A stretch of DNA of 64,000 bases from NCBI RefSeq assembly GCF_001402915.1, contig NZ_CP012945.1:3139501-3203500 (forward strand). The letters run 5' to 3'. The notes beneath the pieces were generated by a model that did not search any database, was not told where the DNA came from, and worked only from the letters and a program-made list of their open reading frames with translations. Below, piece by piece: positions 27,848-44,241 of this stretch. The stretch comes from Devosia sp. A16. GTDB taxonomy: Bacteria; Pseudomonadota; Alphaproteobacteria; Rhizobiales; Devosiaceae. Each line of letters begins with the position of its first letter. Within the stretch, counting starts at the first letter, position 1. A program made the position numbers and the translations under genes.

Positions 27848-28174
27848 TCACTTCACGCTCGAAAAGCTCGTCGGCGTCAGGAACTGACTTGATGCGTTGG
27901 CGATCAGCGGCCCGTTGGCCTCCGATGCCTTGCGCGCCGCCTGCCATTCCGGGTCGGCCATGAACGCGGCCCATTTGGTTTCGCGCTCGGCCATCGAGTT
28001 CCAGCGCAGCATGTAGGTGAGGTCGTTGTTGGAGGTGCCGATCGCGGTGGTCCAGAACCCGGCCTGCTCGATGCCGTGCCGCTTCCAGATATTGAGCGTG
28101 TGGTCCTCGAACCGGCGCTGCAGATCGGCCATGCGGCCCGGCAGGCAATTATAGATGCGCAACTCGTAGATCAT
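27848..28174 (-). CDS. NIPSNAP family protein
   Basis: 108 aa. The start MIYELRIYNCLPGRM, followed by HGIEQAGFWTT and YMLRWNSMAERE, is typical of the small ferredoxin-like NIPSNAP fold, of unknown biochemical function. ATG at 28174 with GAGGGAAAA upstream. It may lie at the end of the transcript that contains the lactonase and ribose-type importer upstream. Confidence 0.8.
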   Translation of the reverse strand: MIYELRIYNCLPGRMADLQRRFEDHTLNIWKRHGIEQAGFWTTAIGTSNNDLTYMLRWNSMAERETKWAAFMADPEWQAARKASEANGPLIANASSQFLTPTSFSSVK

Positions 28175-28323
28175 GCTTTTCCCTCGGCGGCTGTCTTGCG
28201 CCAGCCGCACTTAGCCCAGTCCCGGCGCGATTGACAAACCCTCCGCCATCCCGCAGCAGGCCCCACGGTCGCAACGCCCGCGGCAGGGGCGATGGGAAAC
28301 CCGGCGCCGGGACCGGCGAATTC

Positions 28324-29202
28324 TCACCCCCCAAACGCCGGAAGCACCAGACCCGTCACCCCCACGTCGACGGCAAACAATCCGCCCGGATTGCTCTGGC
28401 CGACGAAATGCTCCGCCGGGCGCTTCAGCACGGCGGTGGTGACATAGAGGATATCGAGGTTGTCGCCGCCGAACTCGCAGCAAGTGGGCAGATCCGTCGG
28501 GAGGACAATCGACTGCATCAGCTTGCCCTTGGGGTCGTACTGGTTCACCCGGCTGGTCACCGGGATGGTCACCCAGTAGCAGCCATCGGCATCGACCGTT
28601 GCACCATCGGCGATGCCGCCGCTGCCATCGAGATCGATGAAGGTGCGCTGGTTCTCGATGTTGCCGGTCACCGGGTCGAAGTCATAGGCGCGGACGATCG
28701 TCGTGTGACTGTCGGAGAAGTACATCGTCCTGCTGTCCGGGCTCCAGGCGAGCCCGTTGCAGCAGCCGACGCCCTCGATCATCCGATGTACCGACAGATC
28801 CTTGTCCATCCGGTAGAGCGAGCCGATAAACTCCACTTTCTTTCCCGGCGCTTCGAACATCGAGCCCGACCAGAAGCGGCCCTGCCGGTCGGGCTTGCCG
28901 TCGTTGAAGCGGGTATCGGCGAGGTGCGCTTCGGGATCGACGATCGCCTCGAACGAACCGGTCGCCGGGTCGAAGAAATAGAACCCCGACACCATGGTGA
29001 CGATGAGTCCGCCTTTCTGCCTGAGTCCGATGCAGCCGAGGAATTCCGGCGACTCCCAGGTGTCGTCCTTGCCGGTTTTCGGGTTGTAGCGGTGGATCAG
29101 CTTGCTCCAGATATCGATCCACCACAGCACCCCCGCCTCGGGGTCCCAGATGGTGCCTTCGCCGAGTTCGGCCCTGGCGTCGACGACGCAGGTGATGTCC
29201 AT
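28324..29202 (-). CDS. SMP-30/gluconolactonase family protein
   Basis: 292 aa six-bladed propeller. Metal ligands are visible: Glu in ELGEGTIWD, Asn in RFNDGKPD, Asn in NGLAWSPD and Asp in GIADGATVDADG. It hydrolyses aldonolactones to aldonic acids. Placed immediately after the ribose-type permease (3-bp gap) in the 33.8-28.3 kb operon, it suggests that the imported sugar is oxidised to a lactone. Confidence 0.85.
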   Translation of the reverse strand: MDITCVVDARAELGEGTIWDPEAGVLWWIDIWSKLIHRYNPKTGKDDTWESPEFLGCIGLRQKGGLIVTMVSGFYFFDPATGSFEAIVDPEAHLADTRFNDGKPDRQGRFWSGSMFEAPGKKVEFIGSLYRMDKDLSVHRMIEGVGCCNGLAWSPDSRTMYFSDSHTTIVRAYDFDPVTGNIENQRTFIDLDGSGGIADGATVDADGCYWVTIPVTSRVNQYDPKGKLMQSIVLPTDLPTCCEFGGDNLDILYVTTAVLKRPAEHFVGQSNPGGLFAVDVGVTGLVLPAFGG

Positions 29203-29205
29203 GCG

Positions 29206-30192
29206 CTACTCCCCCTCGCGGTTCGGTTTCTTGCTCTTGGTTCCGAGCCGCCACAGGCTCGAGAAGGTCTCGCTGCCGAGCGAGACGGTGACGAGGATCA
29301 CCGCGCCGTAGACCACCAGCAGCGCGCCGTTCGAGAGGTTCAATGCCGGCAGCAGCCCGGTCAGGATGGTCAGCACCAGCGCGCCCGCGATCGTGCCGAG
29401 ATAGTGCCCGCTGCCGCCCAGGATCGACGCACCGCCGATCGCCACAGCGGCAACCGAGGTGAACAGGTATGGGTCGCCCATCCCGAGATAGGCCTGGCCC
29501 GAATAGCCCGTCAGCAGCATGCCGGCAAACGAAGCGGTGAGCCCGCTGGTAACGTAGGTGAGGATGATGGTGCGGCTGGTCGGCACACCGGAAAACTCCG
29601 CCACGGTGGCGCTGCTTCCCAGGGCATAGAGGTGCCGCCCGAACGCCGCCTTCGACAGCAGTACCGAGGCGACGATGGCGAGGCCGCCCCAGATCAGCGC
29701 GATCACCGGCACCGGCCCCAGCCGGCCGACCGCCAGGAACTTGATCAGCTCGGGCGCCGACGGCGTCGGCGAGCCGCCGGTGAACACCAGGATCAGGCCT
29801 TGCAGGATGACGTTGGCAGCGAGGGTCATGATGATCGGGGGGACGCCGAACAGCGCAACGCCGACCCCGTTCACCAGGCCGATCAGCGCCCCGCCGGCGA
29901 GGATCAGCGGGCCCACCCACACCAGCGGCAGGTCCTGCCCGGCGCAGAACAAGGTCATCAGCACGGCCGCCGAGTTGAGCACCCACGGAATGGAGAGGTC
30001 GATGCCGCCGCCGATGATGACGAAGGTCTGCCCCAGCGCCACGATGCCGACGAAGGCGGCGAGCACCAGCGTCGAGCGCAGGTTGCTCTCCGACAGGAAG
30101 CCCGGCGAGAACAGGGCGGTGAGCAGCAGCAGCGCCACCATGCCGAGATAGGCAAGGAGGATCAACCGGTTGCGCGAGACGAAGCCGCTCAT
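29206..30192 (-). CDS. Ribose-type ABC transporter permease (BPD_transp_2)
   Basis: 328 aa, about 8-10 membrane segments. It carries the family GGGIDLSIPWVLNSAAV loop and the GGASILGGSG motif. ATG at 30192 overlaps the stop of the permease upstream by four bases (ATGA). Confidence 0.88.
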   Translation of the reverse strand: MSGFVSRNRLILLAYLGMVALLLLTALFSPGFLSESNLRSTLVLAAFVGIVALGQTFVIIGGGIDLSIPWVLNSAAVLMTLFCAGQDLPLVWVGPLILAGGALIGLVNGVGVALFGVPPIIMTLAANVILQGLILVFTGGSPTPSAPELIKFLAVGRLGPVPVIALIWGGLAIVASVLLSKAAFGRHLYALGSSATVAEFSGVPTSRTIILTYVTSGLTASFAGMLLTGYSGQAYLGMGDPYLFTSVAAVAIGGASILGGSGHYLGTIAGALVLTILTGLLPALNLSNGALLVVYGAVILVTVSLGSETFSSLWRLGTKSKKPNREGE

Positions 30193-31205
30193 TGCGCCTG
30201 CCCTCGCGCCGCTTTCTCGGCCACCGAGCTCGCCAGCACGGCAAGCAGCAGGATGACCCCGGAGGCGACTGGCTGCCAGTAGCTCGAGACGCGCATGACG
30301 AACACCAGGTTGCCGATCAGCGTCAGCACGAAGGCTCCGACGATGGTGCCGGCGAGATGGCCGCGCCCGCCGAAGAGGCTCACTCCACCGATCACCGCGG
30401 CGGCCACCGAAGGAAGGATGTAGTCCTTGCCGATGGTCGGCGAGCCGCCGCCGGTCTGCGTCGTGAGATAGATCGCCGCTGCAGCGGCGAACAGTCCCGA
30501 GAGCCCATAGGTCAGGACGTTGACCCGGGTGAGTGAGACGCCGGACAGGATCGCGGACTTTTCGTTGGAGCCGGTCGCCTGGATGGTGAGGCCCACCCGC
30601 GTCGCGCGGAACCAGGTCCAGAACAACAACAGGCCGATCAGCACCCACACCGGACCCGACAGGCCGAACAGCGTCGAATAGCTGAAGCCGATCCACCAGC
30701 CCGGCACCTGCCCGCCATCGGTGGGCAGGATCAGCATCGCCGCCCCGTTGAGGATCGACCAGGTTGCGAGTGTCACGAGGAACGGCTGCAGCTTCAGCAC
30801 CGAGATCAACAACCCGTTGATCGCCCCGATCGCCGCGCCGAGCAGCAGGATGATCGCCACCCACAGCACGACGTTGAGGGGATCCTCGCCGAACTGAGTC
30901 GCCGCGATCACCGTCCCGAGGCTGATCATCCCGCCGATCGACAGATCGATCCCGCCGCGTATCAGCACGATCGTCTGTCCGGTCGCCGCGAGGATCAGCG
31001 TCATCGCCGCCGCGGTGTCGAGGTTGAGTTCGTCCAGCGTGAACACGCCGCGCTGCAGCGTGCCATAGACGAGCACGATCGCCAGCAGCATCAGGCAGGC
31101 GACCAGGAACGGGGCCCGATCGAGCCACCTGGCGCGCCAGCTGCTGGTTAAGGGCTTCTTCGGCTCTAGGCCGACCTGCTGTTCGAGCGCCGGGGCCGTC
31201 ATCAT
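30189..31205 (-). CDS. Ribose-type ABC transporter permease (BPD_transp_2)
   Basis: 338 aa with many membrane segments; IRGGIDLSIGGMISLG and GGVSLFGGRGHLAGT are family hallmarks. It starts with two consecutive Met codons; the first overlaps the ATPase stop by four bases. It forms a heteromeric channel with the next permease. Confidence 0.88.
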   Translation of the reverse strand: MMTAPALEQQVGLEPKKPLTSSWRARWLDRAPFLVACLMLLAIVLVYGTLQRGVFTLDELNLDTAAAMTLILAATGQTIVLIRGGIDLSIGGMISLGTVIAATQFGEDPLNVVLWVAIILLLGAAIGAINGLLISVLKLQPFLVTLATWSILNGAAMLILPTDGGQVPGWWIGFSYSTLFGLSGPVWVLIGLLLFWTWFRATRVGLTIQATGSNEKSAILSGVSLTRVNVLTYGLSGLFAAAAAIYLTTQTGGGSPTIGKDYILPSVAAAVIGGVSLFGGRGHLAGTIVGAFVLTLIGNLVFVMRVSSYWQPVASGVILLLAVLASSVAEKAARGQAQ

Positions 31206-32704
31206 GCCGCCTCGCTCTCGAGTACGGCGGCGCGGAGGATGCCTTCCTCCGAGATACGCTCGCCTTCGAGCATCGCCGCGATGCGCCCGTTCTGCAGCAC
31301 CAGCACCCGATCGGCGACATGCACCAGCTCGGGCAGGTCGCTCGAATAGAAGAGGATCGCGTAGCCCTTGGCCGCGAGGTCACGCATCAGCTGGAAGATC
31401 TCGCCTTTGGTCCCGACATCGACGCCGCGCGTCGGATCGTAGAGCAGCAGCACCCGGGCCTCGGTCAGCAGCATCTTGCCGAAGATCACCTTCTGCTGGT
31501 TGCCGCCCGACAGTGTCCCCGCCGGCTGCTCCGGCGTTCCCGCCTTGATGCGCAGGAAGTCCATCATCTGGTTGACCAGGGCCGCCTCGCGTTTGTCGTC
31601 GAGCAGGCCGTGCGAGGAGAACCGCCGGATCACCGAAAGCGTCAAGTTCTCGCGCACGCTCTTGCTCAGGAGCAGGCCCTGGCCGCGCCTGTCCTCCGGC
31701 ACCAGCGCGATGCCGTCGCGTCCGATCAGTGCTTCGCGTGGATTGCGGATGCTGGACGGCTTGCCCCATAGTTCGAGCGTTCCGGTGGAACGGCTGGCTC
31801 CGAACAAGGCCTGGAACAGCTCGCGCTGCCCGTGCCCCTGCAGCCCGCCGACGCCGAGCACCTCGCCTTCGCGCAGCGCGAAATCGACGCCGGCCAACCG
31901 CGAGCCGCTGCCGAACCCGCTGACCCGCAGCGCCACGCGTTCTGTCGCCGTCGCGATGCGCTCGGGATAGAGCCGGTCGAGGTGCCGGCCGATCATCTGC
32001 GTCACGATCTCGTCGTCGCTCACCGCATTGGCCTCGTGCGCCGCCACTGTCTTGCCGTTGCGGAAGATCGTCAGCCGGTCGGCGATGGCGCGCACTTCGG
32101 CCATGCGGTGCGAGATGAAGATCACCAGCCGCCCTTCGGCGGCGAGTTGCCGGGTGAGCGCCAGCAGCCATTCGGCCTCGCGCGCCGGCAGCGCAGAAGT
32201 CGCCTCGTCGAGGATGAGAATGCGCGGGTCTTTGGCCAGCCCCTTGGCGATTTCGACGATCTGCCGTTCGGCGAGAGTCAGCCGCCGCAGCTCGCGTTCC
32301 GGCGCGAGGACGGGAAACTTGTACCTGCCGAGGAGTTCGAGGGTCCGCCGCCGCAGCTCGCGGCGATCGACCATGCCGATGCGGTTACGCGGTTCGCGCC
32401 GGAACCAGATGTTCTGTTCGACCGTCAGGTCGGGGATCAGCGACAGTTCCTGGAACACTGCGGCGATGCCGCGCTCCTGCGCCGCGTCCGGGTTCGGAGG
32501 GCGGTAGTCGGCGCCCTCGAGCCGGATGCTGCCGCCGTCATGCCGCACGGCGCCGGAGAGGATCTGGATGAAGGTGCTTTTGCCCGCGCCATTCTCGCCG
32601 AGCAGCGCGTGCACCTCGCCGGCGCGGGCCGAAAAGCTGGCCTCGCTCAGTGCGACGATGCCGCCATAGCGCTTGGTCAGCCCGTTGACTTCGATAAGCT
32701 GCAT
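31202..32704 (-). CDS. Sugar ABC transporter ATPase (RbsA/XylG type)
   Basis: 500 aa with two ATPase halves. The N-terminal half has Walker A GENGAGKST and signature region LTLAERQIVEIAK (a variant of LSGGQ). The C-terminal half has a degenerate Walker A (GLQGHGQRE), as is usual in this family, and an LSGGNQQK signature. It drives import together with two permeases and the binding protein. Confidence 0.9.
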   Translation of the reverse strand: MQLIEVNGLTKRYGGIVALSEASFSARAGEVHALLGENGAGKSTFIQILSGAVRHDGGSIRLEGADYRPPNPDAAQERGIAAVFQELSLIPDLTVEQNIWFRREPRNRIGMVDRRELRRRTLELLGRYKFPVLAPERELRRLTLAERQIVEIAKGLAKDPRILILDEATSALPAREAEWLLALTRQLAAEGRLVIFISHRMAEVRAIADRLTIFRNGKTVAAHEANAVSDDEIVTQMIGRHLDRLYPERIATATERVALRVSGFGSGSRLAGVDFALREGEVLGVGGLQGHGQRELFQALFGASRSTGTLELWGKPSSIRNPREALIGRDGIALVPEDRRGQGLLLSKSVRENLTLSVIRRFSSHGLLDDKREAALVNQMMDFLRIKAGTPEQPAGTLSGGNQQKVIFGKMLLTEARVLLLYDPTRGVDVGTKGEIFQLMRDLAAKGYAILFYSSDLPELVHVADRVLVLQNGRIAAMLEGERISEEGILRAAVLESEAA

Positions 32705-32771: not shown

Positions 32772-33836
32772 CTACTTTGCGACGCCGGCGGCTTCCGCGG
32801 CGGTGATCTCCACCCAGTCGGGCGAAATCGGCAGCGTCAGTCCCGGCGGCTGGTCCGGGAAGGCATTCACGCCGAGCTCGATGGTCTGCATCTTGGCGCC
32901 GGGGAAGAGCTTCGACTCGAACGGCGTGGTGGTGATGAAGTCGCCTTCGACCTCCACCGAGCGGTTCTCCGGACGCTTGCCGGTATCGAGGATCTCGACC
33001 GCCAGCTTGATGGCTTCCGACGAGAGGAACGCCGGGTTGGAGCCGAGAATGCATTTCGCGCCGCTGTCGGCGCAGGTCAGCGCGGCGACGTTGTAGGAGA
33101 AACCCACCACGGGGACCATCGGCCGACCGGCATCCTTAAGCGCCTGGATGGCGCCCGAGCCATAGCCCTGGGTCAGGATGCCGTCGACCTGCGGGTTGGC
33201 CGCCAGCAGCGAGGCGACGCCGGCCTGCTCGGGCCCGAGCGCATAGTCGCCGTTATAATAACCCACGACCTTGATATCGGGATAGTTCTTCAGGACGGCC
33301 TCGTAGCCTTCCTGCAGTTGCGCCGAGATCGGCGCACCGGCGAGGCCACGATCGACCAGCACGTTGCCCTTGCCGCCGAGCTGCACTGCCATCCACTCGG
33401 CCATCACTGCCGGGATGCGCGCCCAGTTCGAGGCGAGGGTGAGGGCACACGTCTCGGTCACCACCTGGTCGAAGCTGATCACTACGATGCCGGCATCGCA
33501 GGCCCGTTTGATCGTCGGATTGAGCGCCGTGTCGGACGCCGCATCGACCAGGATCGCGTCGGGCTTTTCGCGGATGATATTGTTGAGCGAGTTGATCTGC
33601 GCCTGAACGGTGTTCTCGACCACCTCGATATGCAGTTCGACCCGGCCGGCCAGCGGTCCCTTGTCCACCGAGACCTGCGCGACGCGCTGCATCTGCTGTC
33701 GCCAGTCGTTCCCGACGAAGTTGTTGCTGAGATAGATGACGTACGGCTTCTTGTCCTGTGCCACGACCGGCGCCACGCCTGCCGACAAGGACGTGACGGC
33801 CAGCGCCGCACACATCAGCACTGAGTGCAGTTTCAT
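32772..33836 (-). CDS. Ribose-type ABC transporter substrate-binding protein
   Basis: 354 aa. ATG at 33836 with GGGAGGATC eight bases upstream; signal peptide from MKLHSVLMCAALAVTSLSAG to about VVAQ. The type I periplasmic-binding fold (LSNNFVGNDWRQQMQR start, INSLNNIIREKPDAILVD) matches the ribose/xylose family. First gene of the importer operon that also has the SMP-30 lactonase. Its promoter carries one LacI-type and one GntR-type site. Confidence 0.88.
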   Translation of the reverse strand: MKLHSVLMCAALAVTSLSAGVAPVVAQDKKPYVIYLSNNFVGNDWRQQMQRVAQVSVDKGPLAGRVELHIEVVENTVQAQINSLNNIIREKPDAILVDAASDTALNPTIKRACDAGIVVISFDQVVTETCALTLASNWARIPAVMAEWMAVQLGGKGNVLVDRGLAGAPISAQLQEGYEAVLKNYPDIKVVGYYNGDYALGPEQAGVASLLAANPQVDGILTQGYGSGAIQALKDAGRPMVPVVGFSYNVAALTCADSGAKCILGSNPAFLSSEAIKLAVEILDTGKRPENRSVEVEGDFITTTPFESKLFPGAKMQTIELGVNAFPDQPPGLTLPISPDWVEITAAEAAGVAK

Positions 33837-33902
33837 CAGATGATCCTCCCATGTGCGGGTCGCGACGGTCCCTCCCGTCTTCACTGCGATGCCCGCGGCC
33901 AA

Positions 33903-34115: not shown

Positions 34116-34886
34116 TCAGACGAGATCGTTCGGCGCGTCGTAGGTGATCGAGAAGATGTCGGCCGGGTGCCGGGCGATCGAGAACTCGACGTTCTGCTGG
34201 TCGGCCGACTGATACAGCATCTCGACCGCTAGAATGGCCGACCCCCTGGCGACGCCGAGATCCGCGGCCACGTCGTCATCGGCAAGTTCGGCCCGCACCG
34301 TGCAATGCGCCACCGCCATGCGGATATTGAGCCGGCGCTGCACCGCGCGGAAGATCAGCACGTCGTTGAAGTCTTCCTTCTTCAGCTGCCCGCCCAGGTC
34401 GGGCGGAAAGTAGGTGGTGATCTGCGCCTTCTTCTGTTTGCCGACCGACAGGATCGAGCGCAGGCAATAACCCGGCTCGTCCTTGCCCAGCCCGAAATGC
34501 CGCTGCAGCAGCGGCGACAGCTCCTTCTTGTAGGATTTGATCTTCAGCGACGCGTCCCTGGTGAAGGCCGCCATGTCGGCGAAGTTCTTGAAGGTCCAGC
34601 TCAGCGTCACCGGCGGCGCTGCCGAGGTGACGACGGCGGGCTTGGCCGAGCGTTTCTTGATCAGTCCGTCGGCCTCGAGATCGCGCAGCGCCTGGCGCAC
34701 GGTGATCAGGCTGACCCCGAAGCGTTCGGCAAGCATCGCTTCCTTGGGGAGCTCGCCACCGACCGGAAACGCCCCGGAAGCGATCGGCTCTCGCAGGATG
34801 TCGGCGAGCTGCCGGTACAGCGGTCCCTGCGCCCGCGCCAGCACGCGCTTGGGCAGGAGGTCGATCGTTGCGCTCAGGTCGTCCAT
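34116..34886 (-). CDS. GntR family transcriptional regulator, UTRA type
   Basis: 256 aa. Winged helix near residues 30-80 (EAMLAERFGVSLITVRQALRDLEADG), then a UTRA ligand-binding domain ending EFSIARHPADIFSITYDA, the usual HutC-subfamily C-terminus. ATG at 34886 is chosen because a longer frame to 34994 would run through a palindrome at 34912 that is likely its own operator. It probably controls the AT-rich operator set found at five promoters around it. Confidence 0.85.
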   Translation of the reverse strand: MDDLSATIDLLPKRVLARAQGPLYRQLADILREPIASGAFPVGGELPKEAMLAERFGVSLITVRQALRDLEADGLIKKRSAKPAVVTSAAPPVTLSWTFKNFADMAAFTRDASLKIKSYKKELSPLLQRHFGLGKDEPGYCLRSILSVGKQKKAQITTYFPPDLGGQLKKEDFNDVLIFRAVQRRLNIRMAVAHCTVRAELADDDVAADLGVARGSAILAVEMLYQSADQQNVEFSIARHPADIFSITYDAPNDLV

Positions 34887-34911
34887 ATACTCAGCCAGCC
34901 CCACAGGTGTG

Positions 34912-34926
34912 GCTATGATAATAGCA
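34912..34926. promoter_or_regulatory. Shared AT-rich operator, site B (autoregulatory)
   Basis: GCTATGATAATAGC is a 14-bp near-perfect palindrome containing ATAATAGCA, the conserved half of the shared motif. It lies 26 bp upstream of the UTRA regulator start. Confidence 0.6.
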
Positions 34927-35049
34927 CGATCTATGACTCGCGAACCGCTGTGTTCACGCCGTCCCCGAGTAAGTGAGGGCGGATGAGATAACACTGCGCG
35001 CTCACACGCGGTGGATGGGCCAGTGTTGTGGCTCGCCCTGCCGAAATTG

Positions 35050-35736
35050 CTAAGCCAACAATCGCAGCGGCAGCTCCAGATACGCCTTGAAGCGCGTCAG
35101 CAACGCCGTCGCCGCTTCCTCGCTCACCTGCGCCGCGTCGAACGACAACAGGCATTCTCCTGTCGCCGGTCCGGTCGCCAGCACCAGCCGCATGTTGCGG
35201 CCGGGCTTCAACGGCATCACCACGGGCCGGATGTCCGAGGCGGCCAGTAGCTTCAGCGACAGCGCCGCCGGTTCCGACGACTGGTCGCCGCCGGCCTCGA
35301 GCGCCTTGAGCCGCCTCGCCCGCAACGGCCCGAGCGAGCCCTTGCGGATCTCGGCAAACACCAGTTGCCCGGCCTGCTGCTCCAGCGCCACGGGGGCGCC
35401 GGCGAGGCTATGGCTCTCCGGCACGTCGTCGAGCGCGCATCCGGCCGCGCGCAGCACCACGTCTTCGACGGTGAACGGCGTATCGGCATCGGCAAAGCCG
35501 GCGAGCAGTTGCAGCAATGTCGTGAGCTGAACGGTGGTGCCGAGCGCCGACGTCTGCGGACCGCTCGCTGCCACGGGGGCAGGGGGGCGGGTCACATAGG
35601 CCTCGATATCGGCCGCGACGATGCGACCGTTCGGCCCGGAGCCTTTGAGCTCCTCCAGCGTGAGGCCGCGCTCGCGCGCCAGCCGACGGGCATAGGGCGA
35701 GGCGGCGCGACGCGGCTGGAGCACGGTGGCGGGCAT
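35050..35736 (-). CDS. E2-like protein: peripheral subunit-binding domain with degenerate acyltransferase domain
   Basis: 228 aa. Residues 12-48 (ASPYARRLARERGLTLEELK and GSGPNGRIVAADIEAY) are a clear E1/E3 peripheral subunit-binding domain. The rest resembles a shortened 2-oxoacid dehydrogenase acyltransferase domain ending FKAYLELPLRLLA. The catalytic DHRxxDG motif is replaced: DAAQVSE stands at about residues 200-206, so the His and Asp needed for acyl transfer are lost. There is no lipoyl domain; that domain is fused to the E1 protein of the same operon. ATG at 35736 overlaps the upstream stop by one base. It may be a scaffold that holds the E1-lipoyl fusion and E3 together. Confidence 0.75.
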   Translation of the reverse strand: MPATVLQPRRAASPYARRLARERGLTLEELKGSGPNGRIVAADIEAYVTRPPAPVAASGPQTSALGTTVQLTTLLQLLAGFADADTPFTVEDVVLRAAGCALDDVPESHSLAGAPVALEQQAGQLVFAEIRKGSLGPLRARRLKALEAGGDQSSEPAALSLKLLAASDIRPVVMPLKPGRNMRLVLATGPATGECLLSFDAAQVSEEAATALLTRFKAYLELPLRLLA

Positions 35737-36749
35737 CAGCGCTGCAGGTATTCGCGGTTGACGCAGTTGGTGAGCCGGCCCTCGGTCAGGTAGGCGTGGA
35801 TCACCTCGATCGACTTGAGCCGCAAGTCGATCATCGAGGCCGGGCTGTAGAAGGCCGCATGCGGAGTGACGATCAAGCGGTCCTTGATCCACGGCTCGTT
35901 GGCGCGCCAGGCCTTGAGCAGCGGATGCTCGAGATCGCCCGGCTCGTTCGGCAGCACGTCGAGCCCGGCGCCCGCTACTGTTCCGTTGCGCATCGCCGCT
36001 TCCAGCGCCGACACATCGATGATCGGCCCGCGCGCCGTGTTGACCACGATCAAGCCGGGCTTGGCCGCGGCGAACGCCTCGGTGCCGAGCAGTCCGCGCG
36101 TCTCGCTGCTGAGCGGCGCGTGCACGGACACCACGTCGGCCCGCGCCATCAGTTCGTTCAGCGAATGCACCCGCTCGTAGCCGGTCGAGAGGTCGACGCC
36201 CGAAAGCAGGTGCGGATCGTAGAACACCACCTTCATGTCGAAGGCGGCGGCGCGCCGCGCTGCGGCGAGCCCGATACGGCCGAGCCCGATGACGCCGAAC
36301 GTCGCGTTCTTGTGCCGGCGGATCAGCGGTGCCTTGGAGAAGTGCCAGCCTTCAAGGCCGTCCACGGCGATCTCGGCCGGATAGGTGTAGGTGCCGCGGG
36401 TCAGCGCCAGCATCAGCGCGATGGCGTGGTCGGCGACTTCCGTGGTGCCGTAATCCGGTACATTGCAGGCCGGGATGTTGCGGGCCCCCCAGCCGGCGGT
36501 GTCGATGTTGTCGAAGCCGACACCCGAGCGCACCGCGATCCTGGCATTGGCAAACGCCGTCGGCGGCAGCGGCACGTTCAGCGTCGGCGAGTGGTTGATC
36601 ACGGCGTCGACGGTCTTGGCCACCTCTGGATCGAGCACCGCTGCGACATCCGCCGTCGAACGGGCGAGGATGAACTCGACATCCGGGTAGTGCTGGCGTT
36701 CCAGCTCGGCATCGTCGGCAGCCTGCCAGTTGACGCACAGAATCTTCAT
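35736..36749 (-). CDS. D-isomer specific 2-hydroxyacid dehydrogenase (C-terminal-binding-protein-like)
   Basis: 337 aa. NAD-binding GLGRIG, the active-site Arg in VNTARGPIID, Glu in LPNEPGD and the His in TPHAAFYSP are all present. It reduces a 2-oxo acid or oxidises a D-2-hydroxy acid with NAD(H). ATG at 36749 after GGAGGAAG; a longer frame from 36827 overlaps the upstream gene. Placed between the E1 fusion and the E2-like gene, it may supply or remove the 2-oxo acid substrate of that complex. Confidence 0.85.
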   Translation of the reverse strand: MKILCVNWQAADDAELERQHYPDVEFILARSTADVAAVLDPEVAKTVDAVINHSPTLNVPLPPTAFANARIAVRSGVGFDNIDTAGWGARNIPACNVPDYGTTEVADHAIALMLALTRGTYTYPAEIAVDGLEGWHFSKAPLIRRHKNATFGVIGLGRIGLAAARRAAAFDMKVVFYDPHLLSGVDLSTGYERVHSLNELMARADVVSVHAPLSSETRGLLGTEAFAAAKPGLIVVNTARGPIIDVSALEAAMRNGTVAGAGLDVLPNEPGDLEHPLLKAWRANEPWIKDRLIVTPHAAFYSPASMIDLRLKSIEVIHAYLTEGRLTNCVNREYLQR

Positions 36750-36780: not shown

Positions 36781-39177
36781 TTATTTCCGGATACCGCCGA
36801 TGCGGCCGCCCATCGGCACCACCGCACCGACCGGCTGGTCGATGGCGCAGAGGGTACCCGAAGCCGGCGCCTCGATCTCGACCACCGCCTTGTCGGTCTC
36901 GATCTCGGCGACCACGTCGCCTTCCTTCACCGCGTCCCCGACCGCCTTCAGCCATTTGACCAGCGTGCCCTCGGATACCGTGAGGTCGCCGAACGGCATG
37001 TTGATCGGCTCGTCGTCGCTGTTCGGGGCAACGACCGGCGCCGCCGCGGGGGCCGGCACCGACACCGGAGCAGGGATCGCGGCTGCAGCCTCGGCGATGA
37101 TGCCTGTGGTGTGCCAGTGGTCCGGCACCGGCGCCCTGCCGGCGATGATGTTGCGCACGCCCTCCATGATCTGCGCCGCATCGATCAGCATGGCGCGCTC
37201 CAGCACCGGTGCGAACGGGTGCGAGACCGGCGCGGTGTGCAACCGACCGACCGGACCGTCGAGCTCGTCATAGGCCAGTTCATTGATGGTCTGGGCGATT
37301 TCGCCGCCCATGCCGCACATCGCCCAGGCCTCGTCCACCACCAGCAGGCGGTGGGTCTTCTTCACGCTCTCGACGATGGTGTTGACGTCGAGCGGCATGA
37401 TGGTGCGGAGGTCGACCACTTCGACATCGGTGCCCTGAGCGGCCAGCAGGTCGGCTGCTTCCAGCGCCCGCGCCACCATCTGTCCGGCCGCGACGACGGT
37501 GATATCCTTGCCGGCGCGCGCGATGCGGGCCGAGCCGAACGGCACGTAGTGCTCTTCACCGACCGGCACCGGGCCCTTCGAGGCAAACAGCGCCTTGGGC
37601 TCCAGCATGATCACCGGATCGGCGCCGCGCAGCGCCGTCTTCATCAGCCCCTTGGCATCGGCGGGGTTCGACGGCACGCAAACGATCAGGCCCGGCATGT
37701 GCGCGAACAGCGGATGGTACATGCCCGAATGGTGCGGGCCGGAACTGCGCAGCGCGCCGGCGCCGGCGCGCACCACCATCGGGGCGCTCATCTCGCCATT
37801 GCTCATGTAGCGGAGCTTCGCCGCCTGCAGGAAAATCTGCCCGGTGGTCTCGAAGGCGAAATCGGCGAACATCAGGTCCGACACGGTGCGCGTGCCGGTT
37901 GCCGAAGCGCCGACCGCGGCGGCGGTAAAGCCCTGCTCTGAGATCGGCGTGTCGACCATCCGGTCGGCTCCGAACTCGTGCCAGAGGTTCTTGGTGTGGG
38001 CGAAGCTGCCGCCGCGCTCGCCGGTACCTTCGCCGAAGTAGAGGATCGCCGGGTTGGCCCGCATTTCCTCGGCAATGCCGTCGCGCACCGCCTCGAGCCA
38101 ACCCTGCACCCGGGTCTCGCCAACGGCGCGCGCCTTGAGCGCTTCCGGCGGGTTGATCGGATTGGCATAGACATGCCGGCGCACCGTCGAAGGGTCGGGT
38201 TCGGGCGAGCTGCGGGCGAACTCCAGCGCCTCCTGCACCACCTTGTCGATATGCGATTCGATATCGGCGAGATCGTCGGCGTCGGCGATGCCGTAATCCT
38301 CCACCAGGCGCTTCCTAAACATGTCGATCGGATCGCGCTTCAGCCAGGCGTCGACTTCTTCCTGTGTGCGGTAGGTGCCGATCACCGGGTCGCCCTCGTG
38401 GTGTCCGACGGTGCGATAGGTCTTGGCTTCGATCAGCGTCGGACCCTTGCCCGAGCGGGCCCGCTCGGTGGCTTCCTTCATCGCCAGCCACACCGCGAAC
38501 ACATCGTTGCCGTCCACGGCCACGCCCGGCATGCCGTAGCTGGCGGCCTTGCTGGCGATCTCGGGGTTGAGGGTGATGGATTTGAGCGGCGTCGCCGTGG
38601 CGTAGAGGTTGTTCTCGCACACGAACACCGTTGGCGCGCGGTTCACCGCCGCAAAGTTCAGGCCTTCGTGGAAGGCGCCGTGATTGGCGGCGCCATCGCC
38701 GAAAAACGCCACCCCGATATCGTCGCGACCCTGCGCCCGGGCGCTCATGCCGATGCCGACGGCGTGGCCGATGCCGGCCCCGACAATGCCGTTGGTGCCG
38801 AACAGCCCGACCGAGCGATCATAGAGATGCATGGTGCCGCCGCGGCCGCCGCAGATGCCGTCCGCCCTGCCGAACAGCTCCGCCATCACCCGCCGGGGGT
38901 CGGCGCCCTTGGCCAGCGCGTGCCCGTGCCCACGATGTGTCGAGGTGACCCAGTCGCTGCGCCGCAGATGTGCGCAGACGCCCACACCGGTTGCTTCCTG
39001 GCCGATATACAGATGCAGAAATCCGGGGGTTTCGCCCTTGCGACAGGCGACCTGTGCGACGCTCTCGAACTTGCGCAGCAGCACCATCTGCTCGAACAGG
39101 CCCATCAGCACCTGCCTGTCGGGCAGATTGCCCGCGCCAGCCTGCTGCGTGCCCTTGCGCATCGCCGAAATCGCCAC
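36781..39177 (-). CDS. 2-oxoacid dehydrogenase E1 alpha-beta fusion with C-terminal lipoyl domain
   Basis: 798 aa. Residues about 20-340 are an E1 alpha domain with the thiamine diphosphate motif GDGAANHGAFHEGLN; about 355-690 are an E1 beta domain (YFGEGTGERGGSF, SEQGFTAAAVGA, MYHPLFAHMPG). An Ala/Pro-rich linker follows, and the last 75 residues are a lipoyl domain with EIETDKA; the lipoylated Lys is about residue 763. This joins functions normally on three chains. The GTG at 39177 is preferred because GGGAGG lies seven bases upstream; another in-frame GTG exists at 39195. It decarboxylates a 2-oxo acid; the substrate is unknown. No E3 gene is nearby. Confidence 0.85.
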   Translation of the reverse strand: MAISAMRKGTQQAGAGNLPDRQVLMGLFEQMVLLRKFESVAQVACRKGETPGFLHLYIGQEATGVGVCAHLRRSDWVTSTHRGHGHALAKGADPRRVMAELFGRADGICGGRGGTMHLYDRSVGLFGTNGIVGAGIGHAVGIGMSARAQGRDDIGVAFFGDGAANHGAFHEGLNFAAVNRAPTVFVCENNLYATATPLKSITLNPEIASKAASYGMPGVAVDGNDVFAVWLAMKEATERARSGKGPTLIEAKTYRTVGHHEGDPVIGTYRTQEEVDAWLKRDPIDMFRKRLVEDYGIADADDLADIESHIDKVVQEALEFARSSPEPDPSTVRRHVYANPINPPEALKARAVGETRVQGWLEAVRDGIAEEMRANPAILYFGEGTGERGGSFAHTKNLWHEFGADRMVDTPISEQGFTAAAVGASATGTRTVSDLMFADFAFETTGQIFLQAAKLRYMSNGEMSAPMVVRAGAGALRSSGPHHSGMYHPLFAHMPGLIVCVPSNPADAKGLMKTALRGADPVIMLEPKALFASKGPVPVGEEHYVPFGSARIARAGKDITVVAAGQMVARALEAADLLAAQGTDVEVVDLRTIMPLDVNTIVESVKKTHRLLVVDEAWAMCGMGGEIAQTINELAYDELDGPVGRLHTAPVSHPFAPVLERAMLIDAAQIMEGVRNIIAGRAPVPDHWHTTGIIAEAAAAIPAPVSVPAPAAAPVVAPNSDDEPINMPFGDLTVSEGTLVKWLKAVGDAVKEGDVVAEIETDKAVVEIEAPASGTLCAIDQPVGAVVPMGGRIGGIRK

Positions 39178-39240
39178 CTGAACGCCTCCCTGCACCGTCC
39201 CGATTCCGGGTCCGATCTACGTGCTCACTTTCGAACATAG

Positions 39241-39329: not shown

Positions 39330-40088
39330 ATGCCATTGCCACCGCTTCGTGCGCGTCTCAAAACCGCTGCGCCGCTGCTGGCGCCGTTCTCGATCATTCC
39401 GTCGGTGGAACTGGTCGAACTGATCGCGCTCGCCGGCTATGACGGCGTCATCCTCGATCTCGAGCATGGCGCGCATGGCAGCGAAGCACTCGGCCCGCTG
39501 GTCCTCGCCGCCATGGCGCGCGGCATTTACCCGCTGGTGCGGGTGCGCAGCAGCGAGCCCACCGAGATCGGCGCCGCGCTCGATGCCGGCGCCGCCGGGG
39601 TGATCGTGCCGCAGATCGGCTCCGTCGCCGAGGCCGAACGCGCCGTGCGCGCTGCCCGGTTCGCCCCTGACGGCAATCGCGGCGCCAACTCCTTCGTCCG
39701 CGGCGCCGACTATTCCGGCCGCACCGAATGGTTCGCCGACGCCAATCGCGACGTCGCCGTGCTGCTGATGGTGGAAGGCGCCGGCGGCGTCGCCGCTCTG
39801 CCCGGGATCCTGCAGCTGCCGAGCCTCGACGGCATCTTCCTCGGCCCGCTCGACCTGTCGCATGCCCTCGGCGTGCCGGGCGAGATGGGGCACCCCAAGG
39901 TCGTCGCGACGATCGAGCAGGTGATCGATGCCTGCAAAGCCGCGGGCGTTACCACCGGCATCTTCGCCGGCACCGCCGATGCCGCCCGCCGGTGGATCGG
40001 TCGCGGCGTGACGCTGGTCGGAGCTGGGGTGGATACTGCGCTGGTGCTCAAGGGGCTGAAGGCAGCGGTGGGGGAGTTGCGGGGGTAG
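39330..40088 (+). CDS. HpcH/HpaI family aldolase
   Basis: 252 aa TIM-barrel class II aldolase. DLEHGAHGSE, VRVRSSEP, GVIVPQIGS, a metal-ligand Glu in MVEGAGG and FLGPLDLSHALG match the family. It splits 2-keto-3-deoxy acids or 4-hydroxy-2-keto acids into pyruvate or oxaloacetate plus an aldehyde. ATG at 39330 after CAGGGAGGC. Divergent from the E1-fusion operon with a shared operator, so pyruvate-type products may feed that complex. Confidence 0.82.
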   Translation: MPLPPLRARLKTAAPLLAPFSIIPSVELVELIALAGYDGVILDLEHGAHGSEALGPLVLAAMARGIYPLVRVRSSEPTEIGAALDAGAAGVIVPQIGSVAEAERAVRAARFAPDGNRGANSFVRGADYSGRTEWFADANRDVAVLLMVEGAGGVAALPGILQLPSLDGIFLGPLDLSHALGVPGEMGHPKVVATIEQVIDACKAAGVTTGIFAGTADAARRWIGRGVTLVGAGVDTALVLKGLKAAVGELRG

Positions 40089-40108
40089 GCCGGGCGCGAT
40101 CCCGCGAC

Positions 40109-40245
40109 CCCCACCGGTCCAACACCTCCCCCTTGATGGGGGAGGGCGGGAGGGGGTGGAGCCGCAAGCTCGATGTTGGTGCCCGACACGGAGCCGGTGC
40201 ACGTGGCTCCCCCCTCCCAGCCTCCCCCACAAGGGGGGAGGTGCC
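40109..40245. repeat. Dispersed palindromic repeat, type 1
   Basis: Arms ACCTCCCCCTTGATGGGGGAGG and CCTCCCCCACAAGGGGGGAGGT, with outer CGACCCCCACC, fill the gap between convergent genes; no coding sequence is seen there. Confidence 0.6.
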
Positions 40246-40267
40246 GCTCAGTGTGTGCGGCGAGTCC

Positions 40268-41491
40268 TCAGATCGCCCCCGTCCGTCGCACCGTCGCATC
40301 TGCCCGCGTGAACAACTCGTCCCGCAACCGCATCCCCAGTCCGGCGCCATCGAGCGGCGCCACCCGGCCATCCGTCACCGGCGGCAGATCGGCGACGATC
40401 TCGGTGTACCAGCCGGTGAAATAGGCCCGCACCGCTTCCTGGTAGATGGCGTTGGGCAGCGTCGCCGACAGTGCGCAGCTCGCGGCATAGACGATCGGCC
40501 CGGTGCAATCGTGCAGCGTCACCGGCAGCTCGCTCGCTTCCGCCAGGTTGGCGATCTTGCGGGCCTCGGAAAGTCCGCCGCACCAGGCGAGGTCGATCAT
40601 GATCACCGATGCGGCGCGCTTGTCGATCAGCTGCTTGAACATCTGCCGCGAGGCCAGCCGCTCGCTAGCGGCAATCGGGATCGAGGTATGCCGCGCCAGC
40701 TCCGCCATTGCGTCGAACTCGTTGTAGCGGATCGGCTCTTCCAGCCACGCCACGTCATAGGGCTTCAGTGCCTCGGCGATGCGCAATGCCGGTGGCAAGG
40801 TCCAGAGCCCGTGCAGCTCGACCATGATTTCCATGTCGCGCCCGACCGCGTCGCGGATCCGCTTGAACGGCTCCAGCGCCTTGTCGAGGTCGCCGAGCGA
40901 AATGCGCGTGCCGTTCGAGGCCTCGGCGGCGATGTCGAACGGCCAGATCTTCATTGCGCCGATGCCTTCCGACAGCAGGCTCTTCGCCAGCTTGCCCGCG
41001 TCGAACCGCCAGGCCAGCAGATCCTCATATGGTCCGTCGTTGGAGTCGCCGGCCGTCAGCGACCAGTCCTCGGTGCGCTCGAACAGCGCGTTTCTTTTGC
41101 TCGCGCGCACATGCTTGTAGCCGGCGCAGGTATTGTAGATCGGCACCGACTGGTGCGTCCGCCCGCCCAATAGCCGCCGCAGCGGCTCGCCCAGCGCCTG
41201 GCCGTAAATATCCCACAGCGCGATGTTCACCGCCGAGTTGCCACGCACCTCGGCGCCCGAGTCGCGCGCCCCGACGTAGACGCTCCCGAGCGTCCGGTCG
41301 TGCAGCTCGATATCCCTGGGGTCCTTGCCGATCAGGTAGGGCGCCACATTGTCGTGGATGTAGCTCGCCACCGGTCCCGGCGCCCAGAACGTCTCGCCGG
41401 TGCCGACGATCCCCACGTCGGTATGTACCCTGAGCCAGAACAGGAACGGGAACTCGGCGATCATCAGTGTCTCGAGCGCAGTGACTTTCAT
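40268..41491 (-). CDS. Mandelate racemase/muconate lactonizing enzyme-family sugar acid dehydratase
   Basis: 407 aa. The base strand is GAMKIWPFD, with metal ligands in VELHGLW, WLEEPIRY and AASERLASR; the late TLHDCTGPIVYAA segment closes the site. ATG at 41491 after GGGAGGG. Divergent from the SDR/transketolase operon with a TGGTACCGGTATCA site between them. It probably converts an aldonate to a 2-keto-3-deoxy acid, which the HpcH/HpaI aldolase could cleave. Confidence 0.8.
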   Translation of the reverse strand: MKVTALETLMIAEFPFLFWLRVHTDVGIVGTGETFWAPGPVASYIHDNVAPYLIGKDPRDIELHDRTLGSVYVGARDSGAEVRGNSAVNIALWDIYGQALGEPLRRLLGGRTHQSVPIYNTCAGYKHVRASKRNALFERTEDWSLTAGDSNDGPYEDLLAWRFDAGKLAKSLLSEGIGAMKIWPFDIAAEASNGTRISLGDLDKALEPFKRIRDAVGRDMEIMVELHGLWTLPPALRIAEALKPYDVAWLEEPIRYNEFDAMAELARHTSIPIAASERLASRQMFKQLIDKRAASVIMIDLAWCGGLSEARKIANLAEASELPVTLHDCTGPIVYAASCALSATLPNAIYQEAVRAYFTGWYTEIVADLPPVTDGRVAPLDGAGLGMRLRDELFTRADATVRRTGAI

Positions 41492-41524
41492 TCGAACCCT
41501 CCCAAGCCCGTTGACTTCAATTTA

Positions 41525-41538
41525 TGGTACCGGTATCA
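41525..41538. promoter_or_regulatory. LacI/gluconate-repressor-type operator, divergent dehydratase-SDR promoter
   Basis: TGGTACCGGTATCA lies in the 79-bp gap between the divergent dehydratase and SDR genes; one base breaks the palindrome. Confidence 0.7.
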
Positions 41539-41570
41539 GTCGCGTCAAGACGTCCAGGGGGGATGCGGAT

Positions 41571-42362
41571 TTGAGTACCAACACGGCGATCCTGAAACGC
41601 GCGCTGGTCACCGGCGCGGCCGGTGGCCTGGGGCGCGAGGTTGCCATCCAGCTGGCGGGCCGCGGTTGCGCCGTCGCCATTGCCGACATCAACGCTGCCG
41701 GCACGGCGGAAACGGCCCGCCTGGTCGAGCATGCCGGCGGGCAGGTGCTCGAGATCGTCGGCGATTTCACCCTCGAGGGCGCCCCCGAAGCGGCCGTCGA
41801 CAAGGTGGTGGCGCACTGGGACGGCATCGACATCCTGGTCAACAATGCCGGCTACGGCGTCATCGAGCCGTTTCTCGAGTCGAGCTACAAATCCTGGACC
41901 CGCACCCTGGCGCTCAACGTCACGGCGCTCGCCATGGCGTCGAAGGCCGCCGGCCGGGTGATGCGCGAGCAGCGCGCCGGCCGCATCGTCAACATCACCT
42001 CGCCGGGCTCGCGCATGGCGCTGCCCGACTACACCGCCTACACCGCCAGCAAGGCCGGGGTGGATTCGATCACCCGGGCGCTCGCGGTGGCGCTGGCGCC
42101 CTATGGCGTGCTGGTGAACTCGCTGGCGCCCGGCATGATGGATACCGAGATGCAGCGCTCGACCGAAGTCGAGCTCGCCCGCGTCAACGGCCGCAGCAAC
42201 GACCTCAAGGCCTTTCTCGACGAGCGCACCCGCCGCGTGCCGCTCGGCCGTCGCGCCGAGATCGGCGAGGTGGCGGAAGCGGTGGTGTGGCTCTGCCTCG
42301 ATTCCCCGCGCTACATGACCGCCGAGCGGCTCAACATGTCCGGCGGCCTCGACAAGGATTGA
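41571..42362 (+). CDS. SDR family NAD(P)-dependent oxidoreductase
   Basis: 263 aa. Rossmann motif TGAAGGLGRE, NNAGYG, and the catalytic YTASK are all intact. A TTG start at 41571 is chosen: AGGGGGGA lies seven bases upstream, and any earlier start would be inside the promoter and operator. It oxidises or reduces a sugar, polyol or keto acid. First gene of an operon continuing with split transketolase (4-bp gap). Confidence 0.85.
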   Translation: MSTNTAILKRALVTGAAGGLGREVAIQLAGRGCAVAIADINAAGTAETARLVEHAGGQVLEIVGDFTLEGAPEAAVDKVVAHWDGIDILVNNAGYGVIEPFLESSYKSWTRTLALNVTALAMASKAAGRVMREQRAGRIVNITSPGSRMALPDYTAYTASKAGVDSITRALAVALAPYGVLVNSLAPGMMDTEMQRSTEVELARVNGRSNDLKAFLDERTRRVPLGRRAEIGEVAEAVVWLCLDSPRYMTAERLNMSGGLDKD

Positions 42363-42366
42363 TCTG

Positions 42367-43215
42367 ATGACCCGCAACTCGCCGCCCGCCGAGGCCGATA
42401 TCGGCGCGCTCAAGCAGCGCGCCACAGCGCTGCGCCGCCATATGCTGACCATGGCTCGGGGCCAAGGCGCCGGCTATATCGGCCAGGGCCTCGGCATCGC
42501 CGATGCGCTCACCGCGCTCTATTTCCACGAACTGCGCTATGATCCGGACAATCTGGGCTGGGCCGACCGCGACCGCTTCCTGTTGTCGACCGGACACTAC
42601 TCGATCGCACTCTGGGCGGCGCTGGCCGAAGCCGGCATCATCCCGGTGGCGGAACTCGTCACCTATGGCGCCGACAACAGCCGGCTCGAGATGTCGACCC
42701 TCGATACGACGCCCGGGGTCGAGGTGATCGGCGGCTCGCTCGGCCACGGGCTGGGGCAGGGGGTCGGGCAGGCGCTCGGGCTGCGGCTCGATCGTTCGGA
42801 CGCCCGCGTCTTCGTCGAACTCTCCGATGGCGAAATGCAGGAGGGCTCGACCTGGGAGGCTGCGATGTCCGCCAGCCATTTCCGGCTCGATGGGCTGGTG
42901 GCGCTGGTCGACTGCAACGGCATTCAGGCCGATGGCCCCGTGGTGCTCGACATGGAGCCGGTCGCCGACAAATGGCGGAGTTTCGGCTGGGAAACCTTCG
43001 AGATCGACGGCAACGATATGGACGCCGTGGTGACGACGCTGTCCAGTGCCCGTCACCGCAACGGCAAACCCAAAGCCATCGTGCTTCGCACTCTCCCCGG
43101 CAAGGGCGTTCGTCGCATCGAACAGAGCGAGAAATCGCACTTCTTCCGCGTCGATGTCGGCCAGTGGGATTCGATCATCGCCGAATTCGAGCAAAGCGTG
43201 GGAGCCACGCAATGA
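42367..43215 (+). CDS. Transketolase, N-terminal subunit
   Basis: 282 aa. Thiamine diphosphate-binding half: GGSLGHGLGQGVGQALGL and ELSDGEMQEGSTWEAAMSA with DCNGIQADG. Its stop overlaps the start of the C-terminal subunit (ATGA), so the two chains are made together. It transfers a two-carbon ketol unit between sugars. Such split transketolases are common in specialised sugar pathways. Confidence 0.88.
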   Translation: MTRNSPPAEADIGALKQRATALRRHMLTMARGQGAGYIGQGLGIADALTALYFHELRYDPDNLGWADRDRFLLSTGHYSIALWAALAEAGIIPVAELVTYGADNSRLEMSTLDTTPGVEVIGGSLGHGLGQGVGQALGLRLDRSDARVFVELSDGEMQEGSTWEAAMSASHFRLDGLVALVDCNGIQADGPVVLDMEPVADKWRSFGWETFEIDGNDMDAVVTTLSSARHRNGKPKAIVLRTLPGKGVRRIEQSEKSHFFRVDVGQWDSIIAEFEQSVGATQ

Positions 43216-44198
43216 GCCGCGTCATGGAAGCCGGCCGCACCCTGGCCATGGGCGAGAACGAAGCCCCCGGCGGCGGTCGTCAATCGGTCGATGCCCCATT
43301 CGGCAAGGCACTCGTCCGGCTCGGGCAGCAGCGGCAGCACATTGTCGGGCTCACCGCCGATCTCGGCAAATATACCGACATCCACCCGTTCCGCGACGCG
43401 CACCCCGATCGCTTCTTCAATGTCGGCATGGCCGAGCAGAACCTCGTCGCCGTCGCGGCGGGGCTGGCGCGGACGGGCAAGCAAGCCTTCGCCACCACCT
43501 ATGGCGTGTTCGCCAGCCGCCGCGCCTTCGATTTCGTCGCCATCGCGCTGGCCCACTCCAACCTCGATGTGAAGATCATCGCGGGGCTGCCCGGGCTGAC
43601 CACCGGCTATGGCGGCACCCATCAGGCGATCGAAGATTTGGCGCTGATGCGGATGGTCCCCGGCCTCACCATCATCGATCCGATGGATGCCACCGAAATC
43701 GACGCGGCCACGATGGCGATGTCCGACCATCACGGCCCGGTCTATATGCGCCTGTTGCGCGGCGCCGTGCCGGTGGTGCTCGAGCCCGGCTACAGGTTCG
43801 AGATCGGCAAGGCCCGGCCCCTGCGTGATGGCAAGGACGTCGGCATCATCTCCACTGGCTTCATGAGCGAACGCGCCATCGACGCCGCAACCCTGCTGGA
43901 AAAACGCGGCATCTCTGTCGCGGTCCTCCATGTCCCGACCATCAAGCCGTTCGACAGCGAAGCCGTCGCTGGCTTTGCTGCGTCGGTCGGCCAGGTGGTG
44001 ACCGCCGAGAACCATGTAATCGTCGGCGGACTCGGCAGCCTGGTGGTCGAGGCCTTGTTCGATGCCGGGATCGTGAGGAAGGTCACCCGCATCGGCCTGC
44101 CCGACCGCTACATCGAATGCGGCGCCGTCCCGACCCTGCAGCAAAAATACGGGCTGACGGTCGAAGCGGTGGTTGAGAGGATAGCGGGGCTGCAATAG
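43212..44198 (+). CDS. Transketolase, C-terminal subunit
   Basis: 328 aa. Pyrimidine-binding domain with GMAEQNLVAVAAGLA and TTYGVFASRRAFD, then the C-terminal transketolase domain. ATG at 43212 overlaps the N-subunit stop by four bases; a longer open frame is only an overlap with that gene. Partner of the preceding subunit. Confidence 0.88.
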   Translation: MSRVMEAGRTLAMGENEAPGGGRQSVDAPFGKALVRLGQQRQHIVGLTADLGKYTDIHPFRDAHPDRFFNVGMAEQNLVAVAAGLARTGKQAFATTYGVFASRRAFDFVAIALAHSNLDVKIIAGLPGLTTGYGGTHQAIEDLALMRMVPGLTIIDPMDATEIDAATMAMSDHHGPVYMRLLRGAVPVVLEPGYRFEIGKARPLRDGKDVGIISTGFMSERAIDAATLLEKRGISVAVLHVPTIKPFDSEAVAGFAASVGQVVTAENHVIVGGLGSLVVEALFDAGIVRKVTRIGLPDRYIECGAVPTLQQKYGLTVEAVVERIAGLQ

Positions 44199-44241
44199 CG
44201 CCATCGAGTTTGGGGCCCACGCGCCGAGGGGAAGAAAGCAC

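Follow-up and report, generated by a model that had tools for sequence, protein, structure and literature searches.

The window analysed here is a stretch of 64,000 nucleotides from Devosia sp. A16, whose genome (G000) consists of a single contig of 5.03 Mb. An operon on the minus strand of the window, belonging to a cluster for sugar degradation in soil bacteria, encodes, in this order, an E1 fusion, a D-2-hydroxyacid dehydrogenase and an E2-like protein. The E1 fusion (36781..39195) has 804 amino acids and unites E1 alpha, E1 beta and a lipoyl domain. The dehydrogenase (35736..36749; PF02826) has an ATG start and finds its best solved-structure matches in CtBP. The E2-like protein (35050..35736) comprises 228 amino acids, made up of a subunit-binding domain and a degenerate, shortened CAT domain; its reading frame extends on the minus strand from an ATG at 35736 to a stop at 35050, and in the sequence the start shares one base with the stop codon of the dehydrogenase gene that precedes it (TGATG). 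Beyond the E2-like gene, and also on the minus strand, lie a GntR/UTRA regulator assigned by Pfam (34116..34994), a sugar ABC transporter with a periplasmic sugar-binding protein (32772..33902; PF13407, E 3.4e-46), an ATPase (PF00005) and two permeases (PF02653; together 29206..32704), and then an SMP-30/gluconolactonase-type lactonase (28324..29202; PF08450, E 4e-85). Further sugar-acid genes occupy positions 39330..45426 and code for an HpcH aldolase, two MR/MLE dehydratases, an SDR and a split transketolase, the N and C halves of the latter being located on the plus strand at 42367-44198. A NIPSNAP-family protein (PF07978) is encoded close to the cluster at 27848-28210 on the minus strand, and a copy with 52% identity was also seen near the E1 fusion in another locus (L160). 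The window holds no E3 gene, all five PF02852 places of the host genome being situated outside; the genome further encodes two complete E2s, one of the OGDH type and one of the PDH type.

The original prediction, made from the window alone, described the E2-like protein as one that had kept the subunit-binding domain and lost both the lipoyl domain and the acyltransferase active site. The peripheral subunit-binding domain was identified at residues 12-45 (35602..35703, minus strand; PF02817, E 3.5e-15), and its phmmer matches are solved E2 binding domains. Besides PF02817, Pfam gave no match to the protein at E<=0.1, neither to the lipoyl domain (PF00364) nor to the acyltransferase domain (PF00198). 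Among the features of an E2 acyltransferase the protein hence presents the subunit-binding domain, and lacks a PF00198 match, the DHRxxDG motif and a lipoyl domain. AlphaFold2 was run with the E2-like protein and seven other sequences of 79-91% identity as input; mean pLDDT values of 38 for the whole protein and 43 for the CAT-like part render the models too poor for use.

The relationship to E2, assumed in the original prediction, was established by profile comparison. A family alignment of 25 copies, eleven from Devosia including that of the window and 14 from elsewhere in the order, was set against a reference profile of 21 ordinary E2s, two from the host genome and 19 from its family. In hhalign, the CAT-like part (35053..35550, minus strand) matched the ordinary E2s with a probability of 94-95% and an E-value of 2e-8 to 2e-7, the latter being the value for comparing one pair of profiles. 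The alignment covers 137-142 columns and reaches the last residue. The insert-free score was 49.6, compared with at most 19.9 for 100 column shuffles and 14.2 for the reversed alignment. By its sequence, the C-terminal part of the E2-like protein is a shortened descendant of the E2 CAT domain. With about 165 residues against 227 in the template, an ordinary E2, it has lost about 60 residues, approximately a quarter of the domain. The C-terminal end itself is preserved: PLRLLA (35053..35070, minus strand) belongs to a P-L-x-L motif present in all 25 copies, with the arginine in 24 of them.

Since the alignment runs to the common C-terminus, the aspartate of the family pairs with the first aspartate of DHRxxDG. 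In the window, DAAQVSE (residues 200-206; 35119..35139, minus strand) stands in place of this motif, as had been read from the sequence. The first aspartate is conserved in 25 of 25 aligned copies. The histidine, equivalent to His375 of the E. coli E2o, is absent from every copy and replaced by alanine in 17, glutamate in five, proline in two and serine in one. The second aspartate, the equivalent of Asp379, is retained in five copies and gone in 20. The sequence observations of the original prediction are thus confirmed, and they are stronger than could be known from a single window. In the available text of a mutational study on the E. coli E2o, alanine exchanges left 2.1% of the complex activity for His375, 2.1% for Asp374 and 9.5% for Asp379, and assembly was unaffected by these three changes (PMC5986005). 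According to the same text, H375W retained 59% and H375G 13% of the activity (PMC5986005), hence the loss of the histidine alone is no proof of inactivity. Because this loss is combined with that of about 60 residues, the CAT domain of the E2-like protein is likely inactive. A transferase that operates by way of other residues is improbable. The invariant aspartate leaves room for residual chemistry, and the tolerance of E2o to tryptophan and glycine agrees with such an activity, yet neither of these two residues occurs at the histidine position in the family, about a quarter of the domain is missing, and in a 16-row alignment of CAT-like parts no other histidine is invariant or nearly so.

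The lipoyl arm had been proposed to reside on E1 instead, and a lipoyl domain was indeed detected at residues 739-799 of the E1 fusion (36799..36981, minus strand; PF00364, E 2.3e-15; EIETDKAVVEIEAP). The remainder of the fusion comprises PF00676, PF02779 and PF02780, that is the combination of E1_dh, Transket_pyr and Transketolase_C which characterizes the PDH type (alpha2beta2), and phmmer matched chains of 1w85 and 1um9. All 25 related E1 fusions carry ETDK, the motif of the lipoyl lysine; 24 were recognised by pattern and one (L069) was read from the sequence. This conservation suggests that the arm on E1 is probably functional. A second E1 alpha-beta-lipoyl fusion is encoded in the host genome at about 4794283 (G000:C1; L082, L086 6242-9565, plus strand). 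It is 28% identical to the first and has an additional C-terminal tail; Pfam revealed no E2-like protein among the seven downstream ORFs, and the two PF00198 proteins of the host are located away from it. A scan of viral contigs with E1 yielded a single fragment (L176), which matches residues 177-431 at 47% identity.

Among the matches listed, a full or near-full copy of the E2-like protein was found in eleven of 19 genomes of the genus, including that of the window. The other matches listed among 136 genomes of the family end by query residue 102, covering the binding domain and linker, and nearly all of them are situated in frames of ordinary E2 length. In the order, a profile of the CAT-like part matched 16 of 397 genomes, and 15, including that of the window, after removal of one genome (G024); its match (L056, E 1.8e-4) was rejected as an E2-like copy, as by eye it reads as a TetR-like regulator. 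The E1-lipoyl fusion was detected at E<=1e-220 in 15 of 387 genomes of the order, of which 14 also possess the E2-like protein; a single genome (G386) has the fusion without it. In the loci read, the E2-like gene follows the E1-lipoyl gene directly or is separated from it by a hydroxyacid dehydrogenase alone; in L066 it was located by the CAT-like profile, and in L068 the sequence ends before E1. The neighbourhood is conserved as well. Outside the genus, nine of ten loci in the order have a GntR gene near the system, eight have an ABC transporter and a lactonase, and six an aldose 1-epimerase (five labelled by Pfam). An SMP-30-type lactonase gene is part of the cluster in all seven Devosia loci read.

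Selective constraint was estimated for Devosia. The dN/dS of the CAT-like part was 0.12-0.32 (seven pairs; seven of ten genomes), compared with 0.09-0.22 for the regulator and 0.05-0.14 for the dehydrogenase (six pairs measured). The CAT-like domain is therefore maintained, less strictly than the neighbouring dehydrogenase: purifying selection acts on an inactive-looking CAT domain. That the gene is merely the relic of an E2 in decay is consequently highly improbable. The weaker constraint in comparison to the dehydrogenase would agree with decay, as would an identity of the E2-like protein to f15-type loci of 34-39% (full matches) versus 70-77% for E1 alpha and beta, but the dN/dS values of the CAT-like part and a frame that is open in 15 genomes of the order, including that of the window, contradict it.

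A 16-row profile of the CAT-like part, with at most nine candidates scored per genome, had matches in 156 of 385 genomes of the class and in 56 of 398 of the phylum. With the exception of the window's own and that in one further genome (G431), the matches listed were weak (best 2.8e-7 and 8.0e-7), and they were taken for ordinary E2s on account of frame length, mostly 300-600 amino acids, and the region matched. One genome outside the order (G740) may represent an instance of the dead form. A copy 87% identical to the Devosia protein was encountered on a contig binned as a Burkholderiales MAG (L038; MKTG01000110.1), and either a mis-binned contig or a transfer would account for it. A plasmid search with the CAT-like part gave no match.

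Two plasmids deserve mention in their own right. The Phaeobacter plasmid pGal_E78 (NC_023141.1; L057 8953-10248 and 11705-12583) may carry a bacterial pair resembling E2 and E3BP. One protein combines two lipoyl domains with a partial binding domain whose score of 23.6 bits (E 6.1e-5) falls just short of the 23.7 cut-off. Its C-terminal stretch shows a weak likeness to the dead family, with an hhalign probability of 15-26% compared with 7% to CAT, and a score of 26 against a shuffle maximum of 21.5. The same operon also encodes a live CAT protein (DHRVING) and lpdA. On a Thermus thermophilus plasmid (AP031324.1; L058 6992-9182), genes for E1 alpha, E1 beta and an 82-aa lipoyl protein precede a TRAP transporter, and no E2 or E3 is annotated within the 16 kb shown.

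The gene slot of the E2-like protein is filled differently in more distant relatives. A search of 289 genomes of the class with E1 (E<=1e-150) revealed full-length orthologs of the E1-lipoyl fusion, 65-68% identical, in four genomes besides that of the window; the other 17 matches end by residue 710, short of the lipoyl part. In one genome outside the order (G783), genes for GntR, SDR, the E1-lipoyl fusion and a hydroxyacid dehydrogenase are followed by a lipoyl-less E2 of the PDH type, with an intact DHRVVDG and a match to PF00198 (E 1.1e-86). A second genome of that genus (G688) has the identical gene order, with an E2 that breaks off at a contig end ahead of the motif. In G740 the gene, likewise interrupted by the contig end, codes for a pair of binding domains and for the beginning of a CAT-like part in which PF00198 found no match. 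In G638 no E2 is present between the dehydrogenase and the TRAP transporter behind it. Within the order, G386 (L175 10810-12138) carries after the E1 fusion a malate/L-lactate dehydrogenase (PF02615) where the D-2-hydroxyacid dehydrogenase and the E2-like protein would otherwise be encoded, and the stretch read contains no E2. The subunit is therefore not indispensable, since an E2-like gene next to the fusion is missing in G638 and G386.

In the E1 tree, G783, G688, G740 and G638 group together (100/100 in one tree, 81/99 in another). For the groupings below, which were named after the tree had been seen, approximately unbiased tests rejected a single clade of all dead rows including G740 (p-AU 1.9e-9), the motif of G740 lying beyond its contig end; they did not reject a clade of the dead rows of the order without G740 (p-AU 0.157, rising to 0.58 when G386 is included). 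Both an E2 that was live first and died later and a dead form first, with a live E2 recruited subsequently, are compatible with these tests.

A transferase-like protein which has no active site and is yet maintained by evolution is probably a part of the assembly and not an enzyme. We moderately favour the interpretation of the E2-like protein as an E2 reduced in size and devoid of catalytic activity that acts as assembly subunit in the manner of the eukaryotic E3-binding protein. A 2-oxo acid would probably be produced from a sugar acid by the D-2-hydroxyacid dehydrogenase of the operon. The E1 fusion would decarboxylate this 2-oxo acid and reductively acylate the lipoyl arm at its own C-terminus. 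E3, encoded elsewhere in the genome, would be recruited by the subunit-binding domain of the E2-like protein for re-oxidation of the arm, and the CAT-like part with its invariant C-terminus would keep the assembly together by oligomerisation. In the available text on canonical E2s, a C-terminal helix docks in a pocket of the facing trimer (PMC10415282). A structural role fits, because the lipoyl arm is on E1, the histidine is lost in 25 of 25 copies, the protein co-occurs with the E1 fusion and it is under purifying selection. The two relatives that have the fusion without a neighbouring E2-like gene, the lower constraint on the CAT-like part than on the neighbouring dehydrogenase and the first aspartate, conserved in all copies, count against it. 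The original prediction, partly supported as a whole, had pictured a stripped core that only assembles E1 and E3; of this the structural role is plausible, but a strictly transferase-free form is challenged by the live E2 in G783.

Without a local transferase, the acyl group could be transferred in trans by a housekeeping E2, be released independently of CoA, or still be transferred at a residual level by the E2-like protein. As acyl acceptor, transfer in a hybrid complex appears slightly more likely than CoA-free release. In such a hybrid, which would be a more specific form of the assembly role and overlaps with it, the E2-like protein would join the housekeeping PDH core, and the PDH E2 would pass the acyl group from the E1 arm to CoA, yielding an ordinary acyl-CoA. 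We consider this a tentative possibility. The two complete E2s of the host could act in trans for the E1 fusion, the E2-like family has kept an E2-type C-terminus, and a live PDH-type E2 occupies the same slot in G783. A precedent is seen in the actinobacterial OdhA, which needs lipoyl-lysine in trans and, in the available text of the source, works in a mixed PDH/ODH supercomplex (PMC10415282). The Phaeobacter plasmid would also fit by pairing a possibly degenerate CAT protein with a live one and lpdA in one operon, but the likeness is weak, and a sugar-derived acyl group may be unsuited to the PDH E2.

CoA-independent release, which we regard as rather unlikely, would require no transferase: the acyl-dihydrolipoyl thioester would be hydrolysed, or a gamma-hydroxyacyl group would close to a lactone that is opened by the lactonase of the cluster, and E3 would just re-oxidise the arm. 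It is compatible with the assembly role as well. The slot is dead in 14 of 15 genomes of the order, G386 and G638 leave it empty, and all 25 related E1 fusions nevertheless retain the motif of the lipoyl lysine. A 2-hydroxyacid dehydrogenase adjoins E1 in Devosia and some others (PF02826) as well as in G386 (PF02615), and the lactonase accompanies the system in most loci, as given above. On the other hand, G783 has a live E2 with the same E1 fusion, and the stretches of L060, L062 and L157-L160, some of them short, yielded no lactonase homologue. Where present, the lactonase could just as well belong to a sugar-dehydrogenase step, a role suggested by the six loci of the order that carry an aldose 1-epimerase. 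The lactone route is our own proposal and may apply. A 2-oxo acid dehydrogenase complex free of transferase seems unlikely, in which the arm is in E1, a dead E2 is the scaffold and the acyl group leaves without CoA, either through hydrolysis or because a gamma-hydroxyacyl thioester closes spontaneously to a lactone that the lactonase then opens. If true, it would shorten the chains of sugar acids by oxidation without CoA.

The assembly subunit that we favour shares with ordinary E2s (PF02817 and PF00198) the domain order after the lipoyl part, the descent of the CAT region and the C-terminal end, and differs from them in the missing lipoyl domain, DHRxxDG motif and PF00198 match and in the shorter CAT domain. 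Eukaryotic E3-binding proteins (PDHX or protein X, fungal E3BP) likewise combine a subunit-binding domain with a catalytically inactive CAT descendant. In the available text on the E3BP of Ascomycota, the core-binding domain has a CAT-derived fold described as reduced (PMC10156792). The Devosia protein differs in being bacterial, in having no lipoyl domain and in having no dedicated live E2 beside it. It would resemble E3BP in its working, and its sequence includes a CAT-homologous domain that looks inactive; by the definition in the available text of PMC10156792, which includes an E2-like domain order with lipoyl domain, a subunit-binding domain with E3 specificity and an M3-like motif, it appears not to be a member. 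E3BP also has its place in a core with an active E2, and the host of the Devosia protein encodes two complete E2s. As E3BP is considered there to be likely a eukaryotic gene (PMC10156792), a bacterial counterpart would be convergent.

The actinobacterial OdhA/AceF supercomplex, as far as described in the available text, is similar in that an E1-containing protein borrows a missing E2 function in trans (PMC10415282). The two systems are mirror images in their losses: OdhA is devoid of the arm but has a transferase, whereas in Devosia the arm was kept and the transferase lost. A shift of the lipoyl domain onto E1 is also known from the PDH E1 beta of NF008854, where we take this domain to be N-terminal; in Devosia the E1 is an alpha-beta fusion with a C-terminal lipoyl domain, and it scored 379.5 bits against NF008854, below the cut-off of 454. 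In the titles and abstracts that searches of open PMC papers brought up, with most of the subscription literature outside, no dead E2-like protein beside an arm-bearing E1 was found for bacteria. Textbook 2-oxo acid dehydrogenase complexes are constructed around the E2 transferase core as their centre. The Devosia system contrasts with these E2-centred complexes as a conserved bacterial lineage with the arm on E1 and an E2 without active site. It raises the questions whether bacteria evolved dead E2 scaffolds independently and whether complexes of this kind can hand the acyl group to an acceptor other than CoA.
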